Assembly: GCA_017893485.1 (NCBI GenBank)
Contig: JACEHZ010000369.1
Span: forward strand, 62,001-126,000
Direction of reading: 5' to 3'
Length of the DNA: 64,000 bases
DNA from: Hemerocallis citrina
Lineage: Eukaryota > Streptophyta > Magnoliopsida > Asparagales > Asphodelaceae
The notes below the pieces were generated by a model, which made no database searches, had not been told where the DNA came from, and worked only from the letters and a program-made list of their open reading frames with translations. Shown in pieces: positions 10,069 through 54,900 of this stretch. Numbering within the stretch: the first letter of the stretch is position 1; each line of letters opens with the position of its first letter. A program made the position numbers and the translations under genes.

Positions 10069-10070
10069 AT

Positions 10071-13240: not shown

Positions 13241-13248
13241 TATAAATA
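13241..13248 (+). promoter_or_regulatory. TATA box in the solo LTR
   Basis: TATAAATA is followed by a C/T-rich stretch (CCCCCTCTCC) and TTCTACACTAA about 25-30 bp later, the usual layout for an LTR transcription start. Confidence 0.65.
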
Positions 13249-14897: not shown

Positions 14898-15060
14898 AAT
14901 GCATGCTTGATGAGTCAAGACATGGCATGGGCACAACTCAGAATGATCGGACTCTAGTCACGCTTGTGGGATGTTTGGTGACTGCAAGAGGATCGTGTGC
15001 CATGAAGGAGGCTGAATTGCCACAGAATGCATGCTTGATGAGTCAAGACATGGTGTGGGG
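14898..15060 (+). repeat. direct duplication in the solo LTR
   Basis: CACAGAATGCATGCTTGATG followed by AGTCAAGACATGG(C/T) occurs at 14894-14932 and again at 15020-15058, about 126 bp apart. It shows local duplication inside the LTR. Confidence 0.8.
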
Positions 15061-17649: not shown

Positions 17650-18236
17650 TCTAACCCGGGAAAGAGCACTGGACTGCCGTAAAGCATATTTTGAAGTACC
17701 TGAAAAGGACTAAAGATTACATGCTAGTTTACCAGGCAGATAGTTTAGTTGCCTTGGGGTATACAGACTCAGATTTTCAGTTGGATAGGGATTTCAGGAA
17801 ATCAACCTCAGGTTATGTATTTACTTTGGGAGGTGGAGCCACTATATGGAGAAGTATCAAGCAAAAATGTATTGCTGATTCTACCATGGAAGCCGAGTAT
17901 GTGGCAACCTCTGAGGCAGCCAAAGAAGCGGTTTGGCTCAGAAACTTCCTATTGGACTTGGATGTGGTACCTAATTTGCCTAAGGCTATTACACTTTATT
18001 GTGATAATAGTGGTGCAGTTGCAAATTCGAAGGAATCACGAGCCCATAAGACATGTAAACACATTGAGCGTAAGTACCACCTGATACGAGATTTCGTAAA
18101 GAAAGGAAAAGTTGCTGTGATCAAGATAGCATCAGCAGACAACCTAGCTGATCCCGTCACTAAGAGCTTACCAGCTAAGGCTTTTGATAGTCATGTTGAG
18201 GGAATGGGAGTCAGATGCGTAGCAGCATGGCTTTAA
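17650..18236 (+). pseudogene. copia RNase H
   Basis: A one-base loss near 17661 shifts the frame. The downstream frame reads HWTAVKHILKYLKRTKDYML, LGYTDSDFQ, CIADSTMEAEYVATSEAAKE, YCDNSGAVA and HKTCKHIERKYHLIRDFV, the acidic catalytic positions and conserved His-rich end of copia RNase H. It ends at TAA 18234-18236, about 50 bp before the polypurine tract. Confidence 0.92.
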
Positions 18237-18287
18237 GTATAAATGGGAGATTTGTAACAGTATACTGAAAAGCAATACTTTGAGTAT

Positions 18288-18298
18288 AAGTGGGAGAT
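18288..18298 (+). promoter_or_regulatory. polypurine tract of copia element
   Basis: AAGTGGGAGAT directly precedes the TGTTAGGG start of the 3' LTR and is the normal plus-strand primer site. A similar AAATGGGAGAT occurs about 50 bp upstream. Confidence 0.9.
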
Positions 18299-19570
18299 TG
18301 TTAGGGTTATATACTGAAAGCATCACTTTTGTATTAACTTTATTTCTTTTCTTTTTTTTTGAATGATAATCATATGGGCATATGTTTGCATATTGTGTTT
18401 ATTATAATATTAATGCAAGTATCTGATATTCTATAAGGTTGATAATATGGTGTGAGGAGACACACAGAAGATCATATTATCAGTTCCCTATGGAATATAT
18501 AAATAGTTCACAACCTAGACGGACTTGGACAATCCATTGGAAAGGTTGTAGTGTAATCTGGTATTAGTCTATCTTGACTATAGGTTTACACTAGTACACT
18601 TTGTGTGTATTGAACAGGACCACTTGAGGTTGTTCTCTTTGTACTGACTACAAAAGAGAACAAACACCTCTGTTATTATGGATGCTTATGCTCTTAATCC
18701 AGATATAATAACAGACATGTATATGCAGTGTGCATTACTTTGACTCATAAAAGAGTGATATTCATTATGGATCAACAACCTCTATGAATTGGGTAATAAC
18801 ATTGTATGTATGATGGGCTGTTGATTGTAAAAGGAATCCATGTCCCGATACGTCGGGTTGATGATGTTCCCTTAAGGAGCCCATAAGGATTGTCATGTAA
18901 ACCCTGCAGGTGGATTACATCCGACATGACAAATAAAGTTGAGTGGTACTACTTAAGGAGAAAAGATGTTGATCAATATAGTTGTCAGTAACTTAATTTG
19001 ATCGACGGACATTCGATATCTTAACATGGGGAGCTGAACGAGCATATAATAAAAGGAGCCCATAAATATAATTTGGGATTAGGAAGGTAGTGCAACAATA
19101 GCTCTTTAGTGGACCGAGCTTTGTTAATGGGCCTGGGTTGTGTGTTCAGGCTGAACACGGGATACCCAGATTCGTTAGGAGACCTAACCCTAATTTCTCC
19201 TTATGGTCCCTGCCGTAGCCTTATATATATATCCTCTATTCTCTGGCCGTCATATCTTTATCAGAGATAAGAAGTTTTCTCTAAATTCGTGATTCACGTA
19301 AGGAGAGAAAGAGAGGTCAGCCAAGGAGAAGAAAGGTTGGTAGACCGTCGCCCACACGACGTCCAACCCGAGGAAGGAATACGTGCAGAAGATCTTGGGC
19401 TCGCTGACTGCTCGAGGTTGCTAGAAACTATCGTCTTCTTCTCATCGCAGGTATAATTCGTGAACCCTAGATTCCGCTATAAAGGGTTAGATCACGTATT
19501 AAATCTGTTAAGCTTTTATGATCGATACGCACACCAATCCGTGGTCTTGGGAATCATCGCAGTTCCATCA
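18299..19570 (+). repeat. 3' LTR of copia element
   Basis: This 1,272-bp copy of 8799-10068 has a TATATATATA box at about 19221-19232. It is followed by the right CCACT target duplication (19571-19575). Confidence 0.94.
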
Positions 19571-30856: not shown

Positions 30857-30914
<58 letters not shown>

Positions 30915-33900
30915 CTTTATTTCGTTGCAAACGGGTCTGTGTGCACAGACCCGTGCGAATGGCGATCTGGGTCGTGGATCTTTGATCCAGCAGCCCACAT
31001 TTTTTTCTTAAATTTAGCCTTAACCTGTTCTTGGGAACGACGGGTTAAGGCATATTTTTTTTAAAAATATGCCTTAACCCGTCGTTCCCAAGAACGGGTT
31101 TAGGCATATTTATAATTTGAGGCAATTTTGCCTTAACTGATCTTCTCTCGATCTCTCCCCACCCTCTCTCTCGTTTCTGCCGAACCCAGACCCAAAAAGT
31201 TCTAAGTAACCATAATCAAAACAGAAACCTCTCCTCCTCTGTCCGCTCTTCCTCATCCTCCTCCAAACATCCAAACCCTAGTCTCTCATCCCATCTTCGA
31301 AAGCCAATCGAAACTGTAGTTCAGCCACGGCACTTACATTTGCTAAATTCTGAGTTATTTTGTAAGGTATTGACTAATTCTTTGCCTTAATAGTTTTAAT
31401 TGTGTTGATTTTTAAATCTTTCCATAGTAAATTATTTAGAAAGTAGCAAAAAAATTTGTTGTCTAAGTAATTTGTAGATGTAAAATTGGGAAGACTTGTA
31501 ATATATTCAAGTGCCGATATTTGTAGATTTTTAAATTTTTTTGGTCTCTTTCCAATAATTTACCGTATATAAAAAAAGCCTAAAAAATTTGTAGATGTAG
31601 AAATTTGTAAGTAGTCATTTGATGAATTTACACGGTGCAAATGTAGTTCTAGTTGTTGTTGATTGGTCGACGATATTGTAGATTGAGTCGTTATTATAAT
31701 CGTTCCATATATATTAAATTACTTAACCTCTATGGTGCGGTTAGACTAGAAAATCCTTCAACCGACCTCCAAAAAATATGAAACTTTGGGAGTAGGATGG
31801 TCTCACGTAGCCCAAGCCTCCCCAACTTGTAGAAGTGAGTTTCGACTCACGGTTGGAGAGATACGGGCGTGTATCGCTTTTGGTTGAAAAAAACCTTGTA
31901 AAGCGATACACAGCCGTATCTCTCGAACCGTGGGTCAAAACTCACTTCCACAAGTTGTGGTGGCTTGTTCTACGTGAATTCAACCAAGTTGCAAAGTTTT
32001 ATAAATTTTGGATGTCGTTTGTACCGTTTTGTTACGTTCATCGCACAAGAAGTAAACTACTTAGAACTTTTGTAGTGCGGTTAGACTAGAAAATCCTTCA
32101 AACGACTTTCAAAAAATACGAAACTTTGCAAGTAGGTTGGTCTCATGTAGCACAAGTTATCCCAACTTGTAGAAGTGAGTTTCGACTCATGGTTCGAGAG
32201 ATACGGCCGTGTATCGCTTTTGGTTTAAAAAAAACAAATAAAGCGGTACACGGCCATATCTCGCAAATCGTGACTCAAAACTCGCTTCTACAAGTTGGGG
32301 TAGCTTGTGTTACGTGAATTCGACCAAGTTGCAAAGTTTTATAAATTTGGATGCCGTTTGTGTGGCTTTCTCATGTTAATCGAACTATAAGTAAATGACT
32401 TAAAACTTTTTTAGTGCGGTAGACTAGAAAACCTTTCAACCGACCTCCAAATACGAAATTTTGCGATTAGGATGGTCTCACGTAGCACAAGCCTCCCTAA
32501 CTTGTAGAAGTGATTTTCGTGTCACGGTTGGAGAGATACGGGCATATATCGCTTTTCATTGAAAAAACCCTTGTAAAGCGATACACGGCCATATCTCTCG
32601 AACCGTGGGTCAAAACTCACTTCCACAAATTGTGGTGGCTTGTGCTACGTGAATTTAACCAAGTTGCAAAGTTTTATAAATTTTGGATGTCGTTTGTGCG
32701 GTTTCTTACGTTTCTCGCATAGGAAGTAAATCACTTAGAAAGCTTTTAGTGCGGTTAGACTAGAAAACTCTTCAAATAACCTCCAAAAAATACGAAGCTT
32801 TGCGAGTTGGTTGGTCTCACCTAACACAAGCTACCTCAACTTGTAGAAGTGAGTTTTGATTCACGGTTCGAGAGATACGGCCGTGTATCGCTTTTGGTCC
32901 AAAAAAAACTAAATAATGCGGTACACGGCCATATCTCGCAAACCGTAACTCGAAACTCGTTTCTACAAGTTGGGCTGGCTTGTGTTACGTGAATTCGACC
33001 AAGTTGCTAAGTTTTTTAAATTTTGGATGTCGTTTGTGCGGTTTTCTCACGTTCATCGAACTATAACTAAATAAAGTTAGAACATATTCCTCGCATTCCG
33101 TAAGGGTTCGTGGCCCTAACTGTTATACTTTTTTTTTATCTTACATATGGACAGTCTTGAAGAAAGTTTCGTTGCCGGAGAAAAATATGTTCGTGCACAA
33201 GAAATTGGTGAATTTCGGTCTTATATTGACGAGCACATAAAACCGAAGATTGGTATGACATTTCTCACCTTAGAGGAAGCGGAGAAATTTTATTCCACAT
33301 ACTGTAGATGTGCGGGTTTCGCTATGCACAAGGGTGAAAATAAATACAAGAAAAATGATGTAGATAAATTATATGTATGTAATAAAGTCGGGGAGTCACC
33401 GAATAATCATAATGAAGCTAGATGGGGAACTACTTCTAGAACGGGTTGCAAAGCTTTCGTTCGTGTAAAACTAAACTCAGAAAGTAATTCGTGAATTATT
33501 TATTCATTTAATGAACCACACAATCACGGGTTTACTTCATCCGACAGCCGTCACTTGCTTCCTCGAAACCGTGTATTGACAAATTCAAATAAAAAAGTGA
33601 TTGGTCAACTTACCGAAGCTAATGTCCCTATATGCAAACAAATGCTTTTCTTCGAAGGTGCAAGTGGAGGTAATGAGAAAATTGGATTCACTGAAACTGA
33701 TATTAGAAATCTTAGGAGAGACGAGTTGGAAGGTTTGAAAGGACATGATGGGCAAATGCTAATTGAGTTCTTTGAATCAAAAAAGAAGACCGATCCTCTA
33801 TTTTTTTATGATTATCAAGTAGATCCCGAAGGGCGATTGTCCTATTGTATTTGGGTGGATGGTATCGGTAGGAAGAATTGTGAACTATTTGGGGATGTAG

Positions 33901-36900
33901 TTTGCTTTGATGCCACCTACAACACGAACCGATACGGGATATTGTTCGTACCATTTGTTGGAGTCAACCATTATTGGCAGTCAACATTCTTAGGTCGTGG
34001 GTTCATTCCAAATGAGAATGCTTCCTCATTTGGGGTCTGTTTGGTTCAAAGGAGGGGAGGGGAGGGAAGGGGAAGGAAGGGGAAGGACTTAATGAAAACT
34101 CTGTTTGGTTCAAAGGAGGGGAGGGGAGGGAAAATAATGATTTTCTTGTTTGGTTCACAAGGGGAGGGAATGGATTTTATAATAAAATTACTTTTATACC
34201 CTTTTGCATATAATAAGAAATTCATACAACCACTTCATACAATAAGAATTGAAACAACAACGAATTAGAGAAATCTAGCTTGTTCAAATTTTTTTGAAAG
34301 AAATTGTTAGATTACTTCACCTGCCTATATGCCTACTTCTAGCATGTTTGCATCACTACTTTGAAATATCTTAATACAAAGCTGTTGTTAAGAAAATGTA
34401 GGATCCAAACAACTAGCTATTTGTTGATAAAGATGAAAATCTGAGGAGACTTGCAAACACACTCCTCCTACTACTATACATTAGCATAGATGTAGTGCAA
34501 AGTCCAAACACCTGGATCCAACTGAACACTATGCCTGGTTGGGCAATTGTTGCATACTATTTCAAAAATTTGCCACATTCTGTAGTTTTTCTGTATGGAA
34601 TATTGGCTACAGAATAATATTTGGAGACCAGAATAATATTTGGCTACAGAATAATATTTTCTGTATGGAATATTGGCTATAACTATAACATAATAATAGC
34701 ACGAGTGCTCTGTCTGCACTTTGCCAGTTGCATTAGTGGATGAGAGTATATTGTCTTGCTTATGTCCGGCTGTGCTAGCTTATCTGCTTGGCTTTGGCAG
34801 TATGGATGGCACATTGATTTCTGCCAAGTTATAAATCCTTAGGACGTTTTTATTCCATTTTTTCTATTTGATTTCACTACTTTAGGATGTTTTGTGATTC
34901 TGTTATCATAATGATTATAATTAACTAATGTCTAACACTTGCAAAAACCCTCCTGACAATAATTATCCTAGATATGTCTGGTCTTCGCTCATTCACCCCT
35001 AAGCTTTCTACTGGTATCCTATCTCAACTTGGGAATGGACTGCAGGGGAACCGCAGCACGAGGAATATTCACATAAATGCCCCCAGCCAACAAAGATCAT
35101 AGAGCCTTCAGAACAAGAAATTGCTTGTGCTTTGAATTGTCGCTATATATTAAGGTCATTGCCTGTAGCAGTCCAATAATGTATGTGGTTCTGCATCATC
35201 AGGATAGGGAGAAGGAGAGAGCGGGAGAGAAACAGTCGGTAGGGAGAACGAGAGAGGTTTTTTTATTAGATTAGGATTTAGATTTTAAAGGGCAATTTAG
35301 TCATGTCACTTTAAAAAATTACCCCTATTTTCTCTCCCTTCCAAATCCCCCCACTTTTGGAGGGGAGCCAAAATTGGCTTAGGAGGGGTGTTGCACCCCC
35401 CCATTTCCCTCCCCTCCCCTCCTAAAAATTGAACCAAACAAGAAAAGTAATAAAAAACCCCTTCCCTCCATTCCCCTCCAACCAAACAGACCCTTGAGTG
35501 GTTCTTTGAAAAGTGGCGAGGAGTAATGGGTCACGATCCGTAGGGCATCGTGACAGATGAGGATCGTAGAATAGGTGCTAGATTGAAGAAAGTTTTCATT
35601 AACACTGTTCATAGATATTGAATTTTGCATATTTTGGATAAGTTGCTGTATGAGGTGCGCATGTCAAATAATATCAATAAGTTTAGGGATGCTTTGAAGA
35701 CCATCGTCTATACGACGAAATTTAAAACTAAATTTGAAGAGAAGTGGAAAATTTTGATTTCGCGATACAAACTTGAGAATAACAAATGGTTGAACGAAAA
35801 ATTTGAAATTTGCGAGAAATGACCTCCCGTCTACGCAAGAGATTCATTTTGGAGTGGCATGTTGAGTACCGTAGCGAATCGCTACATTCATCCTTGAAGC
35901 AACATACCCATAAGTACTCATTACATGAATTTGCCGTGATCTTTGATCGAGTTTTAGCAAAACAAAGACACGAGGAACTTAAAGAAACTCATCGAAATTG
36001 CGTAGAGTGACCAAAATTAATACCGAATAGGCATTGGAGTCACAAATGGCAGGAACATACACATTAAAATTTTTCTACAAATTCCAACAAGAAGTCCAAA
36101 AAAGCTTATTACTTAATGTGAATTTCATTCCGAGTATGGATACACCCGATAGTTCAGCTTTTTCTGTAACGATTTGTGAAAATTCAGAACCGGGGAGGGT
36201 GATTTCTTTTTGCAAAGTCCGTCAAACGGCTAAATATCCTTGCTCCATGTATGAATTCGTAGGCATTCTATGCAAACATCTATTGACGGTTCTTCGGTTC
36301 ACCGATCACACCGCTTTACCGGAGCAGTATATTTGTAGACGATGGACCCGGGATCAGTTGACAAGAAGCAATACACCCATTTTCAATAGTATGAGCGACA
36401 ATTTTGCCTCCCATTTTGTGAATTGACTTAGCACTCAAGACAGTTGGTCGATCTTGGTTCTTCAGAGGGAGCGTACAAGTACATGCTCGACCACATGCTT
36501 AAGGGCGTTGAAGGCGTTTCTCACATTCAATCCAGGAATAGCACACAACGCGAAGGTAGTGCACAACCGGATAGTGGTGGACATGCACATGCACCAGTGG
36601 GGGACCCTGTACAATGTACTATAAAGGGAAGGCATAGAGGGAAGAGATTGAAGTCCATACGAGCCAAAAAACGAAGAGACCAAGACTTTGCAGGACATGT
36701 CTTCGTGTCGTATGTCACGATTCACTAAATTGCCCTAAAAATATGGCAAGGTAATATATATAAGACTTAAGTATATATTAATTTGACTCAATCAATCTTA
36801 ACTTCTTGTTGTTGACACCAATTCATTCTTCTCATTTTTTTAGTGGATCGGTAGCACATGAAGAAGCTCCAATCGGTGGAGAGAGTGATGACAATGAAGA

Positions 36901-39900
36901 TGAAGATTCGTGCTAAGGTAATTTTTGTATTATGTATGTCATGTTTAACTTTGTGGACCTTCTTTCTACAATTTCTTTTTTTTTCCAATTGATGAGAAGA
37001 TAATTATTCATTTCTACAATTCCTTCTTTTTTTTGTAGGTTCGGAATGAAAGTTGAGCGTGCCGATGGAAGCTGTGGGTCATCAAAAATTTAATACCCTT
37101 TTGATTGTATATATATGCTCAATTTGTGTAATTTATGTATGTGTGCAATTTGTGTATTTATAAGTAGATTTTTGGTGTATTTAAGTAGAGTGCAATTTGT
37201 GTATATGTGCACTTTGTGTATTTGTGAACTGCTTTATATTGTTGTGAATGTTGATGTTGTAACTGGTTTGCGAATGTTTATGTATGTGTGCACTTTGTGT
37301 ATTTGTAAACTATATATCTCCTGTGGGTTTATTTTTATTTTTAAATTTCTTTGAACCTAACCCGTTATCAGCAATAATGGATTAGGTAGACTGAAAATGT
37401 GTACAAACAGCGAATTGGTGATCTGAATTTCTGAATTGTTGTGATATGAGTTTCTGAGTTGTTGTGATCTGATATATATTGTTGTATTGTTGTGATCTGA
37501 GTTTCTGAATTGTTATGAATGAACTCTTTTTGTGAAGTTGTATTTTCATCCACAAGCAGCAAATACACTGTCAATATATCTCGACCTAACCCGCTATTGA
37601 CCTTAATCCGTCATCCCCAATAACGGGTTAAGTTGAAAGATATGGCAGAACTTCATCATCAACAGACCAAGTATTCATTGAACACTATCAATATCTCTCT
37701 ACCTAACCCGTTATTGACGATCTTAACCCGTCATCCCCAATAACGGGTTAAGTTGAGAGATATTGGTAGAACTTGGTCATCTACAGACCAAGTATTCATA
37801 GAATACTGTCAATATCTCTCTACCTAACCCGTTATTGACGATGACAGGTTAAGTGATCTTAACCCGTCATTCCCAATAACGGGATAAGTAGAGAGATATT
37901 GGCAGAACTTGGTCTTCTACAGACCAAGTATTCATAGAAAACTGTCAAAATCTCTCTACCTAACCCGTTATTGACGATGACGGGTTAAGTGATCTTAACC
38001 CGTCATCCCCAATAACTTGCCAACTTGGTGAAAAGGACAAGTCCATAACTTGTCTACTATTACATTTCACTCTACAAAGTGAGTACCATATGTAGATAAT
38101 GTTTTATTACAGTAATTTTCACTCTATTACATTTCACTCTACAAAGTGGACAAGTCCATGACTTGCCTACTATTACAGTAATTTATTAGGCAAGTTATTG
38201 GGGATGACGGGTTAAGATCACTTAACCCGTCATCGTCAATAACGGGTTAGGTAGAGAGATATTGACAGTGTTCTGTGAATACTTGGTCTGTAGATGACCA
38301 GGTTCTGCCAATATCTCTCAACTTAACCCGTTATTGGGGATGACGGGTTAAGATCACTTAACCCGTCATCGTCAATAACGGGTTAGGTAGAGAGAGATTG
38401 ACAGTGTATTTGCTGTTTGTGGATGAAAATACTTCACAAAAAGAGTTCATTCATAACAATTCAGAAACTCAGATCACAACAATACAACAATATATATCAG
38501 ATCACAACAACTCAAAAACTATCACAACAATTCAGAAACTCAGATCACCAATTCATTCACATAAATAAAAACTCAGATCACAACAATATATATGATACGA
38601 CAGATAATATGACATTAATTACCAAATATTCATCTCAACAATTTATTCAACTACATTTGTGGAATTATTTCAAGTAGCAATTACAAGACATTCAGTACAA
38701 AATATTCATCTCAACAATGAAGTAGTCTAGATGGATCAATACATTTATCTTTATGGTTGACTTCCGTGGATGCCCGGTATTTATCTACAACATTTATCAA
38801 CATAGAAACAAACTTTGCATTAGTTATTTGAGGAATAAAATCATCAACCAAACACTAAAATACTAATAACGAATCACTTGTTACATACTACCTTTTATGA
38901 CCACGTGGTTTGCGACCACTGGGTGTAAATTGATCAGGCAGGTTCCTATTTCGTTGAGGATTTCGTCGTCTACCTTGCGTCTCGGGGGATTGAGGGTCAT
39001 CTGACCACTGCTCCGCATCTTCTTCAGGTGGTTGCTGTTGTTGAACTTGTTGTGGCTCGGCGATGTGAATTTCAGGCCTTGTCACGCTCTTTCGCCTAGG
39101 AACTGCCACGTTGGCTTTTAAATATGCATCAAGTTGCGGACCTTCACCCACCTCTTTAAGACTACGGCGGCACGGCTTTAGCATCTCCTGCATTAATTCC
39201 TTAACGCTCACGGGTACCTTACTCTTCAAGAAGCGAGTAGCTATCCGAACGTTTTCCCATGTGTTTTCAATCTACATTAGGTTGAAATTTTCAATTTAAA
39301 CATGTACACTAAATGTATCATCCCATCCTCAAATAACAATACATGCATAGTAAATGTATGAAATTGCGTGAAATTTTAGTAACCAAGTTCCAATACGTCG
39401 ACGCCTTTGATTGATACATCAGCTGGGAAGAAGAATATGCTGGTGGTGGTTCTTCCTCGTTGGGGGAATCGGAATCTGCACACCGGCTGGTACAGCAGCT
39501 TATGGAGAAACATACAACCGTGTAATGCGCCTGTACCACGTCATGTATACATGTTGGAAAGAGTCATCGAACGGTATAGCGAAGAACATCATATTCGGTG
39601 TCATCTGATACCGCATGGTGTTCCAGTTGGCCACATGGACCCGGTGGAAATCAGTCCAATCGAAGTTGGGCACTCGACCTGTTCCTCTCACCTCGTGCAA
39701 TTTTTTATCATAACACCGGACTTTGGAAATCTTCTGCTGATATCCGAATTGGCGCATCACTCTATCCGGATACTGGAACTCAACAATAGAAAAATTTACA
39801 AGTGGTGCAGCCGTCAACCAAAGGGCACCAGCCAAACAAACCGGTGGAACCGTTTCCAACCTGACGGTCGAGTACGGTTTCCAATTGATGAACTCGTTCC

Positions 39901-42900
39901 GCAAGTTATCTAACTCATCTCTATAATAGATAAGTGATTGTTGTGGGTTATCGACCCACGTGTGCTGTCCCGCCTAATATACCCCTAAAGGAGGTAACAA
40001 CTTTGGAACCGGTGGGTCGGCAAATCAATCCGGTGTTGGTTCAATAATATGGGGATGTCCGATGTGGATTCGTTTCCAACTCCAGATTTGCAATAGAAAT
40101 ATCGGGCCACCTATTTGTACGGCACTTAATGCACATGCGCATAAATTCCTATACAGTAGCGCCAATGCCGCACTTCCCCAACTGAAATGGCCGGCAAAAC
40201 CAAAATTTTCCAACAACCGTAAATACATCAGTGGCACGCTCGCACCGGATGAGTTAGGGAAGATCACTCCCTTGATCGAACTGAAAATGTACGCACGAGC
40301 ATAGTAACGTAGGGAAGTGATTTCCCGTCGAAGATTTCATCCCAAAATTCAGCTTCCGCTTTATCTTTCGCATCATCTAAGACTTGATCTAATAGATTTG
40401 GATCATATTCTTCGGGAGTATCTCTGAGGATTTCTCTTTCAACGGCCTCTCTTTTTTGGATCAACGACTCCTCAACATCGATACCGAGCAGATCACGAAC
40501 AACTGCTACTCGGTCAAAATCCATGTTCCCCGTCACGGCAACCATATCTATTGGTAGCCCAGTAATGAGTGCTACATCTTGGAAAGTGACGGTCATCTCA
40601 CCCACCGGTAGGTAGAATGTGTGGGTCTCTGGCCTCCATCATTCAACCAGAGTTGTAAGTAGAGGTCGGTTAAGCTTCACATCCCCAATAAATCGAGCTC
40701 TGTAGAAACCGGCTTCAACTAAGTACGGAGTGATACGGAGGTCCATGGGAAGAACCGCGTGCTTCCGGAAGTTGCACTTCTTTGCGGACCAAGTTCACAT
40801 GGCTTCGGATCGGTGTCTGGATTGCAACGAAAGTAAGCTTGAGTTCAACGGTCCAGGAGGTGCAACGGAAACCGAAGACGACGGACCGGCCTCGGCAGAT
40901 GTAGATTGACGGCCACCAACCTATACGAACAAAGATAAATGTTGTTATTATTGAGACAATATTACATATCCGTATTCAAAATCAATAATTATCAATCTTA
41001 CCTCTGTCATTGGTGCGCCACTAGCACTACCAGAAGGATTTCTCGATCACCTCGTTCTAGCCATTTATCTGTGAATAAAAAATTTAAGCTTAGTTGATAC
41101 GGGTTACATCCATTTATCTATCAGTAATAAACAAAGCGAAAATGTGTAAAAAATGCACAAAACACAACGAAAAATAGCAATACTATGTAACTTGTTCGAA
41201 TTCACGTAACACAAGTCACCCCAACTTGTAGAAGCGAGTTTCGAGTCACGGTTTGCGAGATACGGTCGCGTACCGCTTTATTTGGTTTTTTTACCAAAAG
41301 GGATACGCGGCCGTATCTCTCGAACCGTGAGTCGAAACTCACTTCTGTAAGTTGGGGTGACTTGTGATAAGTGAGACCAACCAACTCCCAAAGTTTCGTA
41401 TTTTTTGGAGGTCGTTTGAAGGGTTTTCAAGTCTAACCGCACTAAAAAAAGTTCTAAATCATTTACTTATAGTTCGATGAACGTGAGAAAACCGCACAAA
41501 CGGCATCCAAATTTTATAAAACTTTGCAACTTGGTCGAATTCACGTAACACAAGCCATCCCAACTTGTAGAAGCGAGTTTCGAGTCACGGTTTGCGAGAT
41601 ACGGCCGTGTATCGTTTTATTTGGTTTTTTTAAACCAAAAGCGATACGCGGCCGTATCTCTCGAACCGTGCTTCGAAACTCACTTCTACAAGTTGGGGTG
41701 ACTTGTGCTAGGTGAGAACAACCAACTCGCAAAGTTTCGTATTTTTTTAGGTCGTTTGAAGGGTTTTCTAGTATAACCGCACTGAAAAATTTCTAAGTCA
41801 TTTACTTATAGTTCGATGAACGTGAGAAAACCGCACAAATGGCATCCAAAATTTATAAAACTTTGCAACTTTGTCGAATTCACGTAACACAAGCCACCCC
41901 AACTTGTAGAAGAGAGTTTCGAGTCACGGTTTGCGAGATACGGCTGTGTACCGCTTTATTTGGTTTTTTTATACCAAAAGCGATACGCGGTCGTATCTCT
42001 CGAACCGTGAATCGAAACTCACTTCTGCAAGTTGGGGTGGCTTGTGATAGGTGAGACCAACCAACTCCCAAAGTTTCGTATTTTTTGGAGAGTGTTTGAA
42101 GGATTTTCTAGTCAAACTGCAGTATAAAAGTTCTAAGTCATTTACTTATAGTTCGATGAACGTGAGAAAACCGCACAAACGACATCCAAAATTTATAAAC
42201 TTTGCAACTTGATCGAATTCACGTAACACAAGCCATCCCAACTTGTAGAAGCGAGTTTCGAGTCACGGTTTGCGAGATACTGCCGTGTACCACTTTATTT
42301 GGTTTTTTTTAAACCAAAAGCGATAAGCGGCCGTATCTCTCGAACCGTGCTTCGAAACTCACTTCTGCAAGTTGGGGTGACTTGTGCTAGGTGAGAACAA
42401 CCAACTCGCAAAGTTTCGTATTTTTTGGAGGTCGTTTGAAGGGTTTTCTAGTCTAACCGCACTAAAAAATTCTAAGTATTTACTTATAGTTCGATGAACA
42501 TGAGAAAACTGCACAAACGGCATTCAAAATTTATAAAACTTTGCAACTTGGTCAAATTCACGTAACACAAGCCACCCCAACTTGCATAAGCGAGTTTTGA
42601 GTCACGGTTTGCAAGATACGGCTGTGTACCGCTTTATTTGGGTTTTTTTATACCAAAAGCGATATGCGGCCGTATCTCTCGAACCGTGAGTCAAAACTCA
42701 TTTCTGCAATTTGGGGTGGCTTGTGATAGGTGAGACCAACCAACTCCCAAAGTTTCGTATTTTTTGGAGTTCGTTTGAAGGGTTTTCTAGCCTAACCGCA
42801 CTAAAAAAATTCTTAGCCATTTACTTATAGTTCGATGAATGTGAAAAAACTGCACAAACGACATCCAAAATTTATAAAACTTTGCAACTTGGTCGAATTT

Positions 42901-45900
42901 ACGTACCACACGCCACTCCAACTTGTGGAAGTAAATTTCGACTTACGGTTTGCTAGGTACTGCCCGTGTACCGCTTTATTTGGTTTTTTTTTCAACCAAA
43001 AGCGATATGCAGCCGTATCTCTCGAACCGTAAGTCGAAACTCATTGCTACAAGTTGGGGTGGATTGTGCTACGTGAGACCACCTACTCGCAAAGTTTCGT
43101 ATTTTTTGAAGGTCGATTGCAGGATTTTCAAGCTTAACCGCACTAAAAACTTTCTAAATAATTTCGTATATATCGAACGTAAAAAGCATGGAAAAATATT
43201 CTTGGATTTTTTTCGTTGTATGACCAAAAAAAGTTGAAAATATAATTTTCTTACCCAACCACACCTATTTGGTGTAATCTTATGATAACTTTATAAATGA
43301 TTTCATCCCCTAACTCTCTTCTTCATACTAAGATCAACTTGAGTTATAAGCAGATGTAATACACAAACAAAAAACTTGTAGAAAATAATTAATGACTTGA
43401 AACCTCTAGTTATAACCTTGTCAGTGACTAAGATCAAACAGATTGTTTATTATCAGATATTATTGGTAAGTAATATAGTTATATCTGAATGTGAGTGAAA
43501 ACCATAAATTGGCACAATTGCAAGAACGCCAATAAAGCCTTTCTTCTTCAGCAAGCATTGACATTTATAGCACTTGGTGAGATGATCAATCTTAGAATAG
43601 TCTTGTTCGGTGTTCTTACTTGTATTGTCATTTCTAAGTTAGTTGGGATTTGAAGTAGGCTTGCTTAGGTAAGACTTGTTGGGGTACTGATGAGATGAGT
43701 GCTCAGGTCTAGGGGGGTCAAGGAGGGTCATTCTAGAGGAATGATCCATCGAATTGCTTGCCTTATCATGGGAACTTGCTTTAAGGAAATCCATATTGAT
43801 GACAAGGGCATAAGTTGCTGCTAATGAGTCCACATTTCTATGAATTAGCTCATTCCTCAATCAGCTCGTAATCCAGCCCTGATTCTAGAGAGAGTTTGTT
43901 CTTTGCTCTCTTTACCTAAGGCATTGCACCGAATAAGGAAGTCATCAAACTTATCAACATACTCTTGGGTGGATTTCCTTAATAGAGTTGGTTTCACGAA
44001 TCTAGTAATCGGGTGTGAAACGATAACAGTACGTATCTCTCAGTGAACTTCTTTTTCATGGCTTCCCAAGTGGATATGGGTGTCAGGCCTCGGCTTCTAC
44101 AAGCATGTTCAAGATTGGTCCAGTATTGTTGAGTTTTTCCAGTCAATTTTATCGTGGCAAATTTGACCTTCAAGGCTTCGCTCAAGTCAAACCACACGAA
44201 GTAGTGGACCATGGCACGGATCCAATCAAGATAAGCTTGGGGTTTCATGTGGCCTTCAAAATGGGGAACGTCAGCCTTAACGTTCTTGTATTGTTCATTA
44301 GGGTCACGATCTTGACGTCGGCCGTTACGATCATTCCCTTGAGAGATCTGACGATTAGCATGAAGTTCAGGGGCAACAGTTTGATTTAATTCTACTTTCT
44401 CAAGTCTCTGATTGATATTGGCAAGAGTTGCTTGAATAGAAGATAGGGTAGCGGAAATATCAGAGTTGTCCATCTTAGTTTGGGGAGGTCTAGGGTTCCT
44501 AATTGAGTGGTCTGGGAGGGACAAGAAAGGCTCTTCGGGATTTATGATGGTGCTGCGAAGACACATTCACCAATGGTGACAACTAGGGGTCGTGTGTGCT
44601 GAAATTTGGGAAAAACATGTCTAAATGCAATTAAGTTTTTTTTTTTTATAATCTGAAGTGATCTAAAAGAACGAAAGAAAATGAAATTAAAGACTCTAGA
44701 CAACCCTAAATGAATGCAAAAATTTAAGACTAAATGATGCAGGAACTAGGGTTTTACGAACCTTCGCTCTGATACCAAAATACTGTAAAACGTAATCCTA
44801 AATAGAGAGTTTCCAAGAATTTTAAAGGATTAATTTTACCAACATGTAATGCGGATCAAGTTAGAAATTAAAACAGTTAATCGGTTCAATGGATTTTCAA
44901 GAATTAAGTTATGTTTAACAGGCCCAATTAACAATTCAGTTCTAACAATCAGTAATTATATCCCTAAGCTCTCTAGCAAGTAAAAGATGCAATATTGATT
45001 TGTATTCTATTTAGGCAAGTAGAACACTCACTCTCAATATTTGTTGACGACAGTTAAATCAAATAATATGATAGAGACGATAGAGCAATAATACAAATAT
45101 TTAAGAAGTGAAAAGAGTTTACTGGGAGTTCGAAAAAAAATTAGCAACAGAAAGGAGGTTGTTGTTGTGCTGTAGGCGTCAGGTAGCAGGTGCTGGCTGT
45201 GGTTGATGGAGGCTGCACAAGGTGGAGCTTCGAGTGGTCGAAGAGGGTAGCAAGGAGCTGTTGGCGATGGTTGAGGGGTGCAGTGGGGTTCCAGTGATGA
45301 AGCGACAAGGGGGTGAGTGGCGCCAGCGGCTGTTGGTGGTGGGGTGAAAAGAGGCAGCGGCTACAGGTAGCCGCAACGGTGGAGCGCTCGGGGCTGTTGA
45401 GGGCTGTGAGCAAGGTGATGCTGAGGCTTGGAGATGATGGACTTGGGAGTTGCGGCTGAAGGGAGAAAGTCGACTAGAGGGGAACGGCTTCGGGGTGTAG
45501 GATCGAGACGACGGTTGTGGTGAGGTCGGAGATGGAGGCTAGGGTTTCGGTCAGGGCTTGAAGGAAGAAGCGGAAAAGAGGATTAGGGTTGGATTTAATT
45601 TTATTTGAGGATTAGAGTTTAGGATTTTAATTTGGGGATTAGGGTTTGGGAATTGAAGCGGATTTGGGGATTTGATGGTAGTTTTAGAGTTTATCACAAA
45701 CCTTAAAATTTTATTAGGATTTATCACAAACCCTAATAATTGGATCTTAATTGTATCACACAAAAAGAGATATGAAGAGCAAAACTTAACACGGTATTTT
45801 TTTAAAATCAAGAATAGCATAACTTCTCATTAATCTCAAGGTCTATATATATGCTCAAAACAAATTTTGATACAAATCTTAAAATATTCTAAAATCTCAG

Positions 45901-48900
45901 CAATATTTTAATGCATAAAAGAAAGATTACAAATCGTAAAACTACTACATATGGCTATAATTGCCAAAACAAAATAAAACAGATTTGATGTCCTCATCAG
46001 GTAGTTTAAAATTTAGGGATGATTTTTTAAAATCGTTGAGACTAATGTGAAAAACACAGAATATGAAAATATATAGATTTCGATCATGAAATGAAATGAG
46101 ATGTTTATGCATTGGTTTCTTATTGTCTTAAGTGGTATTTGGTAGTTCGAATTTGATATAAAAAACAATTTGAGAAACTTACGAAGTGTTTTCTTGTTTG
46201 CTCTTGCCCATTTTTGTTCTTGACGCCGGATTAAAAATTTTCGTTTCTCACATACATCAGAAAAGCATCAAATTTAATGTCCCTCCATCTCTCTCTGAAA
46301 TACTTGGAAACAACTAAAAAGAATTTCTTGCATGGGGCTGTGTGTTAAAGAAAGCATAAAGAAATCCTATTCTCACCTCTTCATCTCAATTCTTCTTTCC
46401 TTTTCTCTTTCTCTTTCTCTTCTTGTGACCTTTATTTTTCTCTTCCTTCTACCTTGGATCTCAAGTAATTTGTAAGTTTTTAAATTTGCAAAAGAAGCAA
46501 TTCGAAATTGTTTGGTAAGTCTTTCCCCGCAAAAAAAATATTTTTACTTATAATTGCTTTTCACTTGTTCACAATTGTTAGACCTTTGCGTTAATGATAT
46601 TGATCACTGTCAAGCCTCGCTGATGAAGAAAACCAATTCTTTTGTTTGATGCTTTTAGCATTCTCACGATCTAGGGTTTATTTTCAGTACTATTTAAGTA
46701 AAAACTATAATATGAACAACCATAATATTTTCACTACTTTTCATCTATAATATGAACAATGACATACTGCATATATTTTATTTGATCTTATTCCTTAAGA
46801 TGGTTATACAAACTCTAGTTTCTCAAGTTATGAAACTTTTTTCTTTTTCTTTTTCGCCGTGTACATTTTATGTGCTTGGATTTCTAGTTAATCTTAATCA
46901 GAAGAAGAGTGAGTTTGAGTGGGTAGGATTATTCCATATAGGCGTGGTTGGGTTAAATCATTTATATAGTTTTCACAAACTTGGAGGAAAAGAATTAAGT
47001 GGGTAAGATTACTCCAAATAGGAGTGCTTTGGTTTAGTTAAACAGTCTGATTCTTATGCTCAGCCTTGGTGGAGTTTAACTAAAATTCTCGAAGGAGATC
47101 TCATTGAAAATGTAAGCAAGCAAATCATATATTCCTTGCTATCTGTTGCTGCTGATTTCGGTGTGGGGCCAATCAGATGAATTTGTGGGTTTGTGAGGAA
47201 TCGAATGGGTCAAACATGACTACTTCCACTGTTGTTTGGCTGGCTTCTCGCTGCTCCCGTTGACCTGCACAAAGTTCGAAACACCGGGGTTGAATGAGTT
47301 ACTGGCATATCTCTATGGTTACAAGTGTAAAACTTCAGTTGAATGATTCATGTGGACATGTAGATGTAATTAGCTCATGAACATTGAACGGTTTTCCTCT
47401 AAATAAAACATGCTTTCCATTTGATTTTCCTTCTTCATTTAATAATCTTTTAAGGATTCTCATTTCCAAAAGATCCATCATTGGTTATGTCTAAGGCTCT
47501 TTCCTTTGGTTTTAAACATTTGCCAAGCTATAACTTTTTTACGCACATGCCTTGAATCCAATTTAAGAAATGCCATGAGATATATTTCATTTTGAATATT
47601 CACCTAACTGTTTTATTAACTTTTTTTCAGGTGATCTTGTATCGGTCAGGATTGGTAACTGCTGCTGCATCATTCATACTTTCGTCTTCCACTGCTTTTC
47701 TACCGGAAGGAAACTTTTTTGGAGATATTCTCAGGCAGTATATTGACTTCTTATATATTCTAGGAGCTAGCGGGCTAGGTCTTTCATTATTCTTAATCCA
47801 TATTTATGTCACTCCTATTAAACGCTTCATTCAAGCTTTGTGGGCAATTGGAATTGTTGGGTCTCTTGGAACATATTTGACACTTGCTAAACCTCTTGAT
47901 GAGAGTTTGGTACAATATGTCATAGATAACCCAACTGGTGTATGGTTTGTTGGGCCTCTGTTTGCAGCATTGACTGGTCTTGTCTTCAAAGAAGGTATTT
48001 CTGTTAGATTTCTAACATACTTTTCCATTTAAAATTCTTTGATTTGAACATGTGCTTTTTATGTGCTTGCATATGTTTGTGTCTGTGGCATTTGTGAGAA
48101 TTTAATGAATTTTGCATTATTTGTATCTTCCATTAATCATGCTCAAACTCATTTAAAAGTGTTCTGTTTTCATTGATGAAATGCCATTAGTCTGACCTGT
48201 TTTAAAGTTCCTTCCATTTTTTTGGTCACTATTTTTATTTTTCAAGTTATCAGGATGTTTTAAACTTATGATGTATCTGCAGCTTTCAGTTACAAATAGT
48301 CTTAATGAAGAAACTCGTTTTCCTAATAAATAATGGTACCAACGATATCTTGCATCGCTCAGGTCTTTGTTACGGAAAGTTGGAAGCTGGGATCCTAACA
48401 TTCATCATCCCTAGTGTCCTCCTCGGTCACCTGGTATGTAACCTGCTGTATACATTTTTTAATAAGTTTTTACTAACACAAAAAAAAGCTTCTCTCTCTA
48501 GAATTTCTAGAGAGAGAAGCTCTCCCAAAAAACCACACAAAACAAAACCCTAACTGTCAGGGATGCCAACAGTCGCTCCGTCACCGCCGGCACCGTAGGA
48601 AGCTGTGGACCATCGTCATATTGTATCGAGTCTGTAATGGGTTCATTGTCATTGTATCAGTTTTAGTGTCTGTTTGTTTGTTTGGGTTTTACGTGCTTTG
48701 AGCACTGTTTCCTTTCTTTTTTAAATTGAGAAGGGCGGGAGTGGTGGCGGGCAAGGAGAGTGCATTCAGCACGTGCTCTTTTCAAACTTTGTCGTATGTG
48801 TAACCGCCTCCACCTCCAGCTACTTAAGCCTCATTTGTAACAAACTCAGATTCAATGAATAAAGAGTAATTTCTTTTGCCTCAATCCACTTCATCTTCTT

Positions 48901-51900
48901 CCTCCCTCAATCTCAATCCCCAATTTCCCTTCCATGGCCAGATCACGAGTTCAGCACAATCCCACTCCTGACAATCTGGTATCAGAGCCAGGTACCGCCG
49001 AAGATGATGGCCGCACTGAGGGAAGTACGGAACTAGAAGGAGAGGTGGCGAATTTGAGAAGTAGATTGACGGAGAACCAGTTGCAGACGGGGTTCCTTAC
49101 GGAGAGAGTGGAAGCCATCACGACCAGCATCGGAGAGAGATTTGCAACGATGGAGTCCCGAATGGAGACGATGATGAGAATGATGCAGCAGATCTCACAA
49201 CCTCCTTCCAATTCGCAGCAACTCAGATCTCAACAACCCCCGTTGCTTCCCAACCCACCGCATCAGCAGTCCTTTAGGGAGGTAAGTCACGCCAACTCCC
49301 ACTCAGTAATGTTCACAGGCCAGAGTGATTTGGGAAATTTGATTAAAACCCCATTCAAAGTCGAATTCCCAATCTTCCAAGAGGGAGATCCAACAGAATG
49401 GATCTGTGGCGTGGAGCAATTTCTTGAGTTCTATGAGATTCCAGAAGCACAGAAATTGAAGTATGCGTCCTTGAATCTGAGGAGGAGAGCGGCGCAGTGG
49501 TTCCGCAGGCATCTTAAGCCTCGAGTGCATGAAATCACTTGGACGAAGTTTCTGGAAGAGCTGCTCACTCGATTTGGGCCTACTGAGTTCAACGATTACA
49601 GCGGAGTCTTGTCCAAATTGCAGCAAAAGGGAGATATCGAAGTGTACATACAGGAGTTTGATAAACTTTCAAACTATGTGGAAGATTGGACGGAGGCTCA
49701 TTACTTGAGCACGTTCATTAGCGGTTTAAGAGATGAAATTAGATGGGATGTTAAATCTCAGCGTCCCAAGAATGTAAATGAGGCCATAGGATTGGCTCGT
49801 GGGTTTGAAGAGAAGATGTCCTGTTTGAGAAGAAGCTATAAAACTCCTTTTGCTACCAAGACTCAGTTACCTATGTCTAATCCTACTCCTGCAAAAACTT
49901 CCTCCACATCATCTAATTCCATCAACCAGTATACTCCTCACAATCCTGCAAACAACCTTAGTCCCTCTAATCCTACAACCAGTTTTAATCCTCGACGTCT
50001 TAGCATCCAGGAGATGAGAGAAAGAAGAGCCAAGGGGTTGTGTTTTAATTGTGACGAGAGGTATTCACAGGGTCACATATGCAAAACTCAGAAGTTTTAT
50101 TATCTTGAAGCATTGGAGGAGGAGGAAGAGAGCTCAGATGATGTAGTACTAGAAAGTGAAGAACAACAGCTTATCTCCAACTCCACAGTTCCTAATTCTA
50201 CAAATGTAGTTCCAGAGATTTCCTTCCATGCCTTGGTTGGAGCGCAGGTTTCTCCTCAAACGATGAGGGTGAAGGGGAAGATTAATGGTAGAGAAGTCAG
50301 TATACTGATTGATACGGGGTCTACTCACAACTACTTAGACCCTCAAACTGCCATTAAGGCTAATTTGCTGATCAAAAGTGAACCCAAGTTTAAGGTCACA
50401 GTAGCTAATGGACAAGCGATGTATAGTGAAGGGAATGTAGAGAAGATCAACTTCACCGTACAAGGAATTAGTCTACAGGCTGATTTATTGTTGCTTCCAT
50501 TAGGACCAGCTCAAATGGTGTTGGGAGCGCATTGGCTGAGGTCGCTTGGGCCAGTGACTATGGATTTTGAAGAAATGACAATGCAATTTCAAAGTGAAGG
50601 CAAATGGCATAAACTAAGGGGTATTATCAATCTGCAGTTGCAGTTCCTTGAGGGGGAAGAGCTAGCTAAAATCAGCAGCTGCGTGTGCCAAGCTTACATG
50701 ATACAGCTGCAAGGGGAATTATCTGAAGTGGAAGCATTAGAAGAGGCAATGTGTGAACAAAACTTCCAAGGAAATGAGAAATTAGTGGTACAAAGTGAAG
50801 CTGATATACTTCATGTTTTACAAAGATTTCCAGAAGTTTTCACTGAGGAACCGAGTTTGCCACCTCCAAGGTCCATCGACCACCACATACCCATGATCGA
50901 AGGGCATACACCTGTATGCATCAAGCCGTATAAACACCCACACTTCTATAAAAATGAGAGTGAGCGGCAGATTAAGGAGATGCTCAACTCAGGATTTATT
51001 CGACCCAGTAACAGCTCTTACGCTTCCCCTGTCATTCTTGTGAAGAAGTCTGATGGAAGCTGGAGAATGTGCGTGGACTATAGAGCTATAAACAACCTCA
51101 CTCTCAAGGCTAAATTTCCCATTCCCATCATAGATGAGCTATTAGATGAACTGAGTGGCTCTAGATACTTCTCCAAAATCGACTTAAGGTCAGGATACCA
51201 CCAAATCAGAGTGCATGAGAATGATATCCCCAAAACGGCATTTCGAACTCACCATGGGCATTTCGAGTTCCTTGTTATGCCCTTTGGACTCACCAATGCC
51301 CCCGCAACTTTTCAAAATCTTATGAATGAGATATTCAAGGAATTCCTCCGCAAATTCATTCAGGTCTTCTTCGATGACATCTTAGTTTATAGTACTGATT
51401 GGGAGAGCCACCTTGTACACTTGGCACAGGCATTAAAAGTTCTAAGTGATCACCAGCTGATAGCAAAGAAGAGTAAATGTAGCTTTGGGAAAACATCTGT
51501 GAGCTACTTAGGCCATGTGATTAGCGCAGATGGAATTGCGGTGGACCAAAACAAAATTAAGGCAGTAGGGGAGTGGCCTGTGCCTAAGACTGTAAAGGAG
51601 CTGAGGGGATTTTTGGGGCTTACTGGTTACTATCGGCGGTTTGTTAAAGATTATGGTAATATAGCAGCTCCGCTTACTCAATTGCTCAAGAAAAATTCAT
51701 TTCAATGGTCGGAGAAAGCAACTCAAGCATTCCTCAAACTCAAGCTAGCCATGACTACTACTCCTGTTCTTCGTTCCCCAGATTTCTCAAAGCCTTTCAC
51801 CTTGGAAGCAGATGCATCTTTAGAAGGAATCGGCACCGTACTTGTGCAGGATTTGCACCCAATAGCTTTCATGAGTAAAGCTCTTAAGGGAAGGGCTCTA

Positions 51901-54900
51901 GCCATGTCGACATATGAAAAAGAGATCCTTGCTATATTACAAGCTGTGAAACATTGGAGACACTACTTGTTAGGATCCTCTTTTGTGATCAAAACAGATC
52001 AGCGGAGCATCAAATATATACTTGAACAGAGGATCAATACTGAAGTTCAAGAAAAGTGGATGTGGAAGCTGCTTAGGTATTCTTTCAGAGTTGAATATAA
52101 GAAGGGATCTGATAACGTAGTTGCTGATGGGTTGTCAAGGAGACAAGGTGAGCAAGATACTTACTGTGAGATCACTTTTGTAGTTCCTAGTTGGTTGGAA
52201 GAGTTGAAAACCATGGTGGAGAAGGACCCTTACTTCATTGAGCTAGTTGAGAAGTTACAAGCAGGAACATTAAACTCTACAGATTACAAAATCCTTGGGG
52301 GAATTTGGTATTATCAAGGAAAGATTTTAGTGAGTCCAAATGCAAGTGTTAAGGAATTAATTTTCCTAGATCATCATTCATCTTCGGTGGGGGGACACTC
52401 TGGATTTCATAAGACGCTGCAAAGAATTAAGAGGGCCTTTGTGTGGGAAGGAATGAGTAAAGATGTGAAGAAATTCATTAGAGAATGTCTTGTTTGTCAG
52501 CGCAATAAAAATGAAACTGTTTTGCCTGCAGGGTATCTTCAACCTCTTCCAATCCCTGAGAGAATTTGGGAAGATATTTCTATGGATTTTATAGAGGGTT
52601 TACCCAAATGTGCCGGTAAGAATGCCATCATGGTGGTCGTAGATCGTTTATCTAAGTATGCGCACTTTATTGCCATAGCTCATCCCTATACGGCACAAAC
52701 CATAGCTCAGATTTTTATAGACAATGTCTACAAGCTTCATGGAATGCCACGCAGCATAGTTAGCGATAGAGACCCTGTGTTCGTTAGTAAATTCTGGAAA
52801 GAATTCTTCACACTGCAGAACTGTCGTCTCCAGATGTCCACGGCATATCACCCTCAAAGCGACGGGCAAACTGAGATAGTAAACAAAGCACTAGAACTAT
52901 ATCTGAGGTGCTTGTGTGGTCAAAAATCTAGCGAATGGGTTAAATGGCTGAGTTGGGCAGAATTCTGTTACAATACTTGTTGGCATGTTTCGACGGGATG
53001 CACTCCATTTGAAGGTGTTTATGGGAGACCACCACCGTCGTTATTGCACTATGTTCCTGGTACATCAGCTCTTCCCGCTGTTGAAGATAGCTTGGTTGCT
53101 AGGGATGCTATCATTAAATTGTTAAAAGACAATTTGGTTCAGGCCCAGAGTCGTATGAAGTTTTTTGCAGATCGAAGGAGGACTGAGAGGAGTTTTGAAG
53201 TGGGGGATCTGGTACTGTTAAAATTGCAACCATACAAACAGGTGTCCTTGCGGAATGCCACTCCTCAGAAGCTGCCGTCGAAGTACTTTGGGCCGTATCG
53301 AATACTGGAGAAGATTGGGTCAGCTGCCTATCGCTTGGAGCTTCCACCATCTGCTACTTTGCACCGTGTGTTCCATGTGTCAAAGTTAAAGAAATGTCAT
53401 GGAGATCACCTCCCTAACATAGCAACGGAGTTACCTCATTGATGGGCTAAAGAATCTCAAGATGAGGAACCCGAATCCATACTGGAGAGGAGAGTGTTCA
53501 AGAAAAATAATAGAGTGGGTATTCAGCTGTTAGTGAAATGGAAGAATGAGGATTTGAGTGATGCATCCTGGATCGATATTGACGAATTCAGACTCAAATA
53601 CCCAAACTTCGAGCTTGGGACAAGCTCGATTCTATGGGGGGAGTTGTCAGGGATGCCGACAGTCGCTCCGTCACCGCCGGCTCCGTAGGAAGCTGTGGAC
53701 CATCGTCATATTGTATCGAGTCTGTAATGGGTTCATTGTCATTGTATCAGTTTTAGTGTCTGTTTGTTTGTTTGGGTTTTACGTGCTTTGAGCACTGTTT
53801 CCTTTCTTTTTTAAATTGAGAAGGGCGGGAATGGTGGCGGGGAAGGAGAGTGCATTCAGCACGTGCTCTTTTCAAACTTTGTCGTATGTGTAACCGCCTC
53901 CACCTCCAGCTACTTAAGCCTCATTTGTAACAAACTCAGATTCAATGAATAAAGAGTAATTTCTTCTGCCTCAATCCACTTCATCTTCTTCCTCCCTCAA
54001 TCTCAATCCCCAATTTCCCTTCCATGGCCAGATCACGAGTTCAGCACAATCCCACTCCTGACACTAACCCTAGATCTGAGTTTGGGGGGGGGGGGGTGGG
54101 GGCTAGGGTTTCATCGCCCCCTTCCCCCCCCCCCTCCGCCCTCGCTTCTTCTTCCCCTCTACCTCTGGCACCGACTCTCGTCGCCTCTCTGTCCTTCTTG
54201 TTTCTTCTCCTCAATCCCAACTTTTCTTTTGCTCGCCGGTCTGAGCCTCATCCGCGAGGCAGAAAGGAGGGGGTGGATGGTCGCGGCCACCACTTAGGGG
54301 TTGCTCCGACGTCGGCGTCTTGTGTGAGCGGCGATGGGTCCCGATTTGGCGGCAGTCTTGGCGGGGCCGACGACTGTGCACGAGGAGGTTGAAGGGATCT
54401 ATCGGGTGCGAGTGGGTGCGGGCATCGCGTTGGAGTCTTGGCGGGTGCGAGCGGCGATGGATCCCAATTTGGCGGCAGGGCGGGGCCGATGGCTGTGCGT
54501 GAGGAGGTTGGGGGCTCCATCGGGTTGGGGGCTACCGTGGAGGCATGTGGGGGAGAAAGGAGAGAGAGTCAGGGGGAAGGGAAGTTTTGATTTGATTTGG
54601 AATGCTGTCGTAAGGGGAATTTTGAATTTCAAATTAAGTTTTGAAATTCGAATGGACGTTGAGGAGTCCCTAACATCCAAAGTGTCCCTAATTTCTAAAT
54701 TACAACTGATTTACAATTAACAGCGAAATATTTCCTAACTGGTGTGGGCGACGGTGGTCAGACAATTTCAGGATTTGGGCACTTCTTTGACCTGGTTTGG
54801 TCAAAGTGAGGAGTGTCGTTGGTTTCTCTCACGTCAGGGGGGCTTGGAGGGGTCAGGTGTGACGCCTGCTTTCGTCGCGATTTGGCGGTGAGAGTCAACT

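Follow-up and report, generated by a model that had tools for sequence, protein, structure and literature searches.

Several groups of Mutator-like elements (MULEs) carry a gene for a plant mobile domain (PMD) protein beside the gene for their transposase. An antisense PMD gene is recorded for MUDR, MUDRAVI2, MDR, MULE-Monocots and MULE-Solanaceae_1 (Dupeyron 2019, PMC6446971); the domain occurs seven times in the accessible text, always in a table, and no discussion of its function was seen there. PMD-C was captured by MULEs twice, in grasses and in Amborella, and its use by transposons against silencing is a guess, offered as speculation (Ikeda 2017, PMC5418596). The molecular function of PMD has been called unknown (PMC8616336, PMC9899485). 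An anti-silencing system has been worked out for the VANDAL21 element: VANC21 binds a 9-base motif and removes methylation from the tandem repeats that contain it, which are situated in front of VANA21 and within introns of the VANB21 and VANC21 genes (PMC5735166; PMC10398659); the term PMD was not found in the accessible text of either paper. The subject of what follows is a MULE in a 64,000-nucleotide stretch of Hemerocallis citrina DNA (contig JACEHZ010000369.1, positions 62,001 to 126,000, forward strand), referred to as the window and numbered from its first letter. The element belongs to a high-copy family of FAR1-type (Jittery-like) MULEs with two genes, the second of which encodes a PMD protein, and this copy of it has decayed.

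A two-gene MULE and its copies

From the outside in, the family consists of outer terminal inverted repeats (TIRs), arrays of palindromic units (three to six per end in the four copies measured), and a FAR1-MULE-SWIM transposase gene and a PMD gene that converge. The original prediction had placed a transposase gene (+ strand) and a PMD gene (- strand) reading towards each other between mutually inverted arrays, and this arrangement is confirmed. Both gene starts adjoin the arrays: the transposase ATG (33147) is 75 bp inside the left array, and the first PMD coding exon (41064) is 77-118 bp inside the right array, depending on where the boundary of the latter is drawn. Both genes of the window copy are broken. 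Its features are as follows.

30860..30911, no strand: (AT)26 tract, left (transposase-side) tip (Tandem Repeats Finder; five copies were examined for their tips, and all 8 of these end in (AT)n)
30912..31734, +: outer TIR, transposase side, with a conserved splice donor at ~31362 and a probable leader exon upstream of it (matches outer TIRs on both sides of other copies)
31735..33072, +: transposase-side array, 4 palindromic units of ~340 bp (3.9 x 340 bp; tandem and inverted repeat comparison)
33147..34032, +: transposase, first part, with FAR1 domain and the beginning of the MULE domain, interrupted by an in-frame stop codon (33492-33494) (Pfam PF03101, PF10551; reading frames)
34033..35493, no strand: nested insert within the transposase, 1.46 kb, with inverted GGGTCTGTTTGGTTC-type ends (alignment to the C1:216 Mb copy jumps from 34032 to 35494; reading frames)
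35494..36426, +: transposase, rest, with SWIM zinc finger, stops and frameshifts (reading frames; collinear with the C1:216 copy)
37567..38405, no strand: intergenic interior, containing 136-bp repeats in inverted orientation (the C1:216 copy has related ones)
38891..39271, -: PMD C-terminal part, a probable exon (reading frame)
39503..40920, -: main PMD exon, interrupted by four in-frame stop codons and, near 40315, by a break (Pfam PF10536; reading frames; alignment)
41002..41064, -: first PMD coding exon, with acceptor upstream, donor downstream and one in-frame stop (same exon in 20 of 30 PMD loci)
41141..43184, -: PMD-side array, 6 units, with truncated right end (outer TIR absent beyond)

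The nested insert is presumably Tourist/Harbinger-like, as judged by its ends. The window's SWIM finger scores 19.2 bits, just below the cut-off of 19.6; in another copy (L029) PF03101, PF10551 (7.6e-25) and PF04434 are all above cut-off. The MuDR N-terminal family is not listed in the Pfam scans of the window or of L029, FAR1 being found instead, and a FAR1 N-terminal and a SWIM C-terminal domain around the MULE domain make up the architecture tabulated for Jittery. At the PMD break near 40315, the C1:216 copy is ~66 bp longer; on this alignment a deletion of ~66 bp replaces the simple frameshift (~40324) that had been considered.

The genome searched for relatives is the window's own (3.775 Gb). 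It contains a full copy of 13.2 kb (about G000:C1:216337653-216350845; the C1:216 copy). This copy aligns collinearly with the window from 30860, at the left tip, into the PMD-side array, and its terminal repeats outside the arrays are 85% alike over 351 columns, (AT)n included. The outer repeat is also present at either end of two further copies (C1:122.45 Mb and C10:183.17 Mb). The predicted element is thus repeated in the genome, with the same arrays beside both genes. Transposase queries (the best 133 of 10,233 candidates and the best 99 of 12,028) yielded 208 places, the window's own included, and three PMD queries yielded 175 (from 90 rows of the first query that cover its second half or the whole of it, 12 new rows of the second query and 87 rows of the third); all of these lists hold best matches only. 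Among the matches listed, 28 transposase/PMD pairs lie within 20 kb of each other, where an even spread would give 0.39, and 26 of them are convergent; the window's own pair is not counted, its PMD lying outside the lists. The convergent layout is not a product of chance: it is found again at 26 further places, and a full copy aligns collinearly with the window. The MuDR-like character originally proposed stands for the two convergent genes and fails for the transposase type. Candidates for copies with both genes intact are also at hand: at least four of the 26 pairs (C1:122, C210, C3:282 and C6:281) are stop-free in the matched stretch of either gene, which for the transposase of C210 and C3:282 is the first 295 residues only. 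Of the 87 rows of the second PMD query, 11 are stop-free and 76 have at least one stop.

Six transposase rows have an identical score (922.7) and stop-free frames of 803 amino acids, suggesting a recent burst within this MULE family. A second PMD-bearing repeat also came to light: 20 of 117 PF10536 rows score an identical 275.9 bits with open frames of 517-519 amino acids, which looks like the recent burst of another element. None of the 66 other PF10536 rows compared (of the 117) lies within 20 kb of a transposase place. Among the 30 PMD loci used below, L040 and L041 do not differ in sequence and perhaps represent a single locus that entered the assembly twice.

The element does not start at 31699, as had been supposed. 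Its terminal repeat extends outward to the (AT)26 tract at 30860-30911, and the arrays are therefore subterminal and not the element's ends; the sequence beyond the left array is common to other copies. On the PMD side the window copy ends abruptly near 43184, and alignment to the C1:216 copy shows the outer TIR of other copies to be absent here. The tips examined (window 30860-30911, L036, L070 and L072-L076) all sit in (AT)n, one of the eight with an (AG)n run within it, a reflection either of a preference for AT-microsatellite targets or of a terminal microsatellite of the element itself. A target-site duplication was not readable for the window copy at the 31699-type edges originally given, and none is to be expected there because one end is missing. 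Duplications of 8-11 bp, the predicted 9 bp included, cannot be scored at tips that sit in (AT)n tracts; the flanks of the C1:216 copy, whose tips also lie in (AT)n, share ATTTCCTATATAT, which is compatible with a target-site duplication. Hairpins with AACCCGTT/AACGGGTT-like cores are found in the outer terminal repeat (31010-31115) and in the interior between the genes (37567-38405).

Arrays, selection and splice sites

The PMD-side array proper spans 41182-43164 (5.8 x 339 bp). In inverted orientation the left and right arrays are 82-92% alike over 143-391 nt (25 longest pairs listed), clearly better than the 61-69% (ungapped) of the direct orientation. That they match in direct orientation too is due to the array unit being an imperfect palindrome, a property that had been missed, with arms 72-76% alike over 267-290 columns in the three units tested. 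Conserved blocks surround CAACTTGTAGAAGTGAGTTT and TCACGGTTCGAGAGATACGG in 177 array units from 62 sequences, some of which overlap. In four elements, the median likeness of units is 0.854 between opposite ends of one element, 0.866 within one array, and 0.823 and 0.824 between units of different elements. Opposite-end units are as alike as same-array units and more alike than units of different elements; the latter difference, though small, points to a joint evolution of both ends.

All 29 of the other transposase loci, and 28 of 30 PMD loci (the exceptions are L039 and L065), have an array directly upstream, these loci being best matches and not a random sample; no array lies near any of 8 other PF10536 loci, three of them near-identical. 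The co-occurrence of arrays and genes is that of the original prediction: PMD was not always apart from the transposase, nor, at the loci compared, did the arrays occur independently of either gene. The position of the arrays upstream of both genes likewise speaks against their being an independent satellite, as compared at gene-anchored loci; solo arrays are possible. A search of Rfam gave no match.

Selection was gauged by the ratio of nonsynonymous to synonymous divergence (dN/dS; Nei-Gojobori estimator, 30 loci per gene, pairs not independent). The median is 0.277 for the transposase (356 pairs) and 0.334 for PMD (387 pairs); it is 0.257 (57 pairs) and 0.313 (20 pairs), respectively, for stop-free copies only, and 0.228 (16 pairs) and 0.199 (82 pairs) for pairs with dS > 0.4. 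Array DNA put through the same estimator in three frames gives 0.764, 0.683 and 0.814. Judged by these ratios, both genes, PMD included, are under purifying selection; the values understate the constraint of the element's active life because many copies are decaying.

Splice sites are also conserved. A pyrimidine-rich stretch and AG immediately precede the transposase start at 28 of 29 other loci, and AC stands in place of AG in the window and in its 97% sibling L010. The first PMD exon was found in 20 of 30 loci, preceded by AG in all 20 and followed by GTAAG in 19; the search pattern missed it at 9 of the other 10 loci, the tenth being spurious. A scan of the outer repeat hit 13 sequences, 10 from the transposase side and 3 from the PMD side, and a donor GTAAGG is present in 12 of them; this is not an unbiased rate because the scan selected for likeness to the donor region. 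At either end a conserved donor precedes the array and an acceptor follows it at the start codon, so that the arrays look intronic: a leader exon would lie in the outer repeat, the array in a 5' intron, and the promoters outside the arrays. It is therefore doubtful that a repeat array drives the PMD gene, as had been proposed, since the conserved splice sites probably put the arrays in introns.

PMD kinship, possible role and neighbouring elements

A tree of transposon and host PMDs, the comparison suggested with the original prediction, was built without A. thaliana MAIN and MAIL1. It unites the window PMD and 12 family copies in one clade (100), which has as its sister set (97) 13 database proteins, including those of Triticum, Carex and Rhynchospora, which suggests a monocot host; the genome's 8 best-scoring PF10536 loci are very distant from it. 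Predicted proteins of Vitis (P0037) and Cuscuta (P0060) combine PMD with MULE parts, and one of Actinidia (P0031) combines it with a SWIM finger. All three are database entries and are scattered in the tree; they are possibly further captures and could be gene-model fusions. Of 30 PMD proteins, 9 match DUF1985 at an E value no higher than 0.1 (best 1.5e-6; window piece 0.24), a weak kinship, and a sequence search of the PDB returned three weak clathrin light chain matches only. An isolated gag-like frame (seen by eye) beyond the right array had raised a Ty3/gypsy origin of PMD; PMD recurs with the transposase instead, and around that frame neither a pol frame of at least 170 amino acids nor a pair of long terminal repeats (LTRs) was seen.

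Models of PMD proteins appear to share the core fold of VANC, as scored on the 254 and 120 chains ranked highest by Foldseek; other folds are possible. The most economical account of PMD is that of a VANC-like factor with the arrays as its targets, because these lie upstream of both the transposase and the PMD gene and are probably intronic, like the VANC21 repeats. PMD would then be a sequence-specific DNA binder at the array units of both ends that keeps the element free of host silencing, with transcripts starting in the outer repeat. We put the probability of this account at roughly 0.55. It takes the family, the co-occurrence, the selection and the fold of related PMDs as given and adds splicing, binding and anti-silencing, steps that we infer. 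Transcripts of both genes would start in the outer terminal repeat and lose the array as a 5' intron, as the conserved splice sites suggest; the PMD protein, to judge from fold and position, would bind DNA sequence-specifically in the fashion of VANC21; its target sites would be the array units at both ends; and by keeping those ends unsilenced it would allow the transposase to be made and to be active. The proposal made at the outset that PMD may counter host silencing thereby gains structural support from the models.

A number of observations weigh against this account. The proteins modelled, P0010 and P0005, are PMD proteins of other origin, and neither is the PMD that the element encodes. 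Their sequences are 9% identical to VANC21; Foldseek by itself gives E 6.7e-3, template-modelling (TM) scores of 0.34/0.43 and a root-mean-square deviation of 13.3, with no match at E 0.001; and a shared fold shows no function. Because host MAIN and MAIL1 promote silencing, a carried PMD could act in the opposite way. The published VANC21 and VANC6 motifs occur 0 times in the window arrays and 0 times in the interior. The DOWN motif CATGCAGTTT (PMC9899485), considered as a possible link to host PMD, was found neither in the window element nor in the C1:216 copy when one mismatch was allowed, and its exact form occurs once in 299,688 bases of loci, where permuted motifs have a mean of 0.6 (standard deviation 2.4); such absences are weak evidence because families may differ in motif. 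Target-site duplications are unproved. Lastly, 182 of the 208 transposase places have no listed PMD within 20 kb, and PMD-less copies may be common; these 182 places cannot be called PMD-less, because two PMD queries gave 13 convergent pairs and three gave 26 (best matches only).

Three other roles for PMD have to be considered. As the occupant of the same convergent place as mudrB, PMD might be an accessory transposition factor like maize MURB, serving insertion, synapsis or nuclear entry and having no part in silencing. Purifying selection on PMD fits such a helper, and MURB is required for insertion in maize (PMC9168764). However, the modelled fold resembles that of VANC21, whose known role is anti-silencing, and the Jittery group is tabulated with one open reading frame (ORF), so that such elements can generally do without a helper (PMC6446971, Table 1); we regard a MURB-like role as unlikely, if worth keeping in view. 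The captured PMD could, on the other hand, interfere in trans with the host's MAIN/MAIL1/PP7L complex, acting as a dominant-negative protein or as a decoy, with no binding to the arrays. Host PMD proteins are in a complex with PP7L (PMC7156037), transposon PMDs are related to them, and counter-silencing by transposon PMDs has been proposed before (PMC8616336; PMC5418596), but a decoy leaves the paired arrays at both ends unexplained, and we think it decidedly unlikely. The distance of the element's PMD clade from the genome's 8 best PF10536 loci also counts against the decoy; it says little, those loci looking by eye like PMD-B and not like MAIN/MAIL.

PMD as a passive passenger, a transduplicated host gene without function for the element, is highly improbable and already largely refuted. 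MULEs often carry gene fragments, the window PMD is broken, and stops abound in the PMD query rows (76 of 87), all of which a passenger would fit. Against this, the PMD gene contains an intron with conserved splice sites, its dN/dS resembles that of the transposase, it is stop-free in 11 of 87 query rows, and 26 of the 28 pairs show the two genes converging. Returning to the VANC-like account, the match to the VANC21-DNA structure and the location of PMD between paired, VANC-target-like arrays would make a concrete protein-DNA pair. More tentatively, and at odds somewhat short of even, PMD and VANC constitute one DNA-binding fold family, with host MAIN/MAIL silencing and transposon anti-silencing as its two uses; if true, this would tie plant silencing and transposon anti-silencing pathways to one ancestral DNA-binding domain. 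The kinship of PMD with VANC may already have been stated with the VANC21-DNA structure (PDB 9lnj).

The window contains other elements, identified by eye. A Ty3-type LTR element (48555-53944) has one open frame of 1527 amino acids and LTR stretches of 300 nt that are 99% alike, and is apparently young. A Copia-type element (8850-19420) has repeat pairs 9.5 kb apart that are 97-99% alike. A remnant of the long interspersed nuclear element (LINE) type (3190-7239, - strand) has endonuclease and reverse transcriptase frames.

Comparison with known systems

The PMD-bearing groups of Dupeyron 2019 resemble the window family in combining a MULE transposase with a PMD gene, on the opposite strand in some or most members; unlike it, they are not of the FAR1/Jittery type, and they have TIRs of at most 421 bp, with arrays not mentioned in the accessible text. 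Ikeda 2017 describes PMD-C as transposase fusions, whereas the PMD of the window family is a separate convergent gene. Jittery (group 36 of PMC6446971) has the same FAR1 and SWIM domains around the MULE domain and is tabulated with one ORF and no PMD; the window family, in contrast, has a convergent PMD within 20 kb at 26 further places. A second gene is not without precedent here, because grapevine Jittery-like MULEs can carry downstream ULP genes (PMC2528002). The suggestion that this is an under-described group holds in part: PMD capture and antisense PMD genes had already been reported (PMC5418596, PMC6446971), but the Jittery group is tabulated without PMD, and full-text literature searches, mostly without subscription papers, found no FAR1-type MULE with PMD.

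Like the window family, the tandem-TIR MULEs of Ferguson and Jiang 2012 (PMC3310237) have a repeated TIR at either end. In these, one TIR copy is external and the other internal, and most of the elements are non-autonomous, whereas the window family is coding and has 3-6 palindromic units inside a unique outer TIR. VANDAL21 shares with the window family a second element-encoded protein of predicted PMD/VANC fold (VANC21, PDB 9lnj) and noncoding tandem repeats that lie upstream of the transposase gene and in introns (PMC5735166; PMC10398659). VANDALs, however, are elements with degenerate TIRs or none, whereas in the window family long TIRs hold the arrays.

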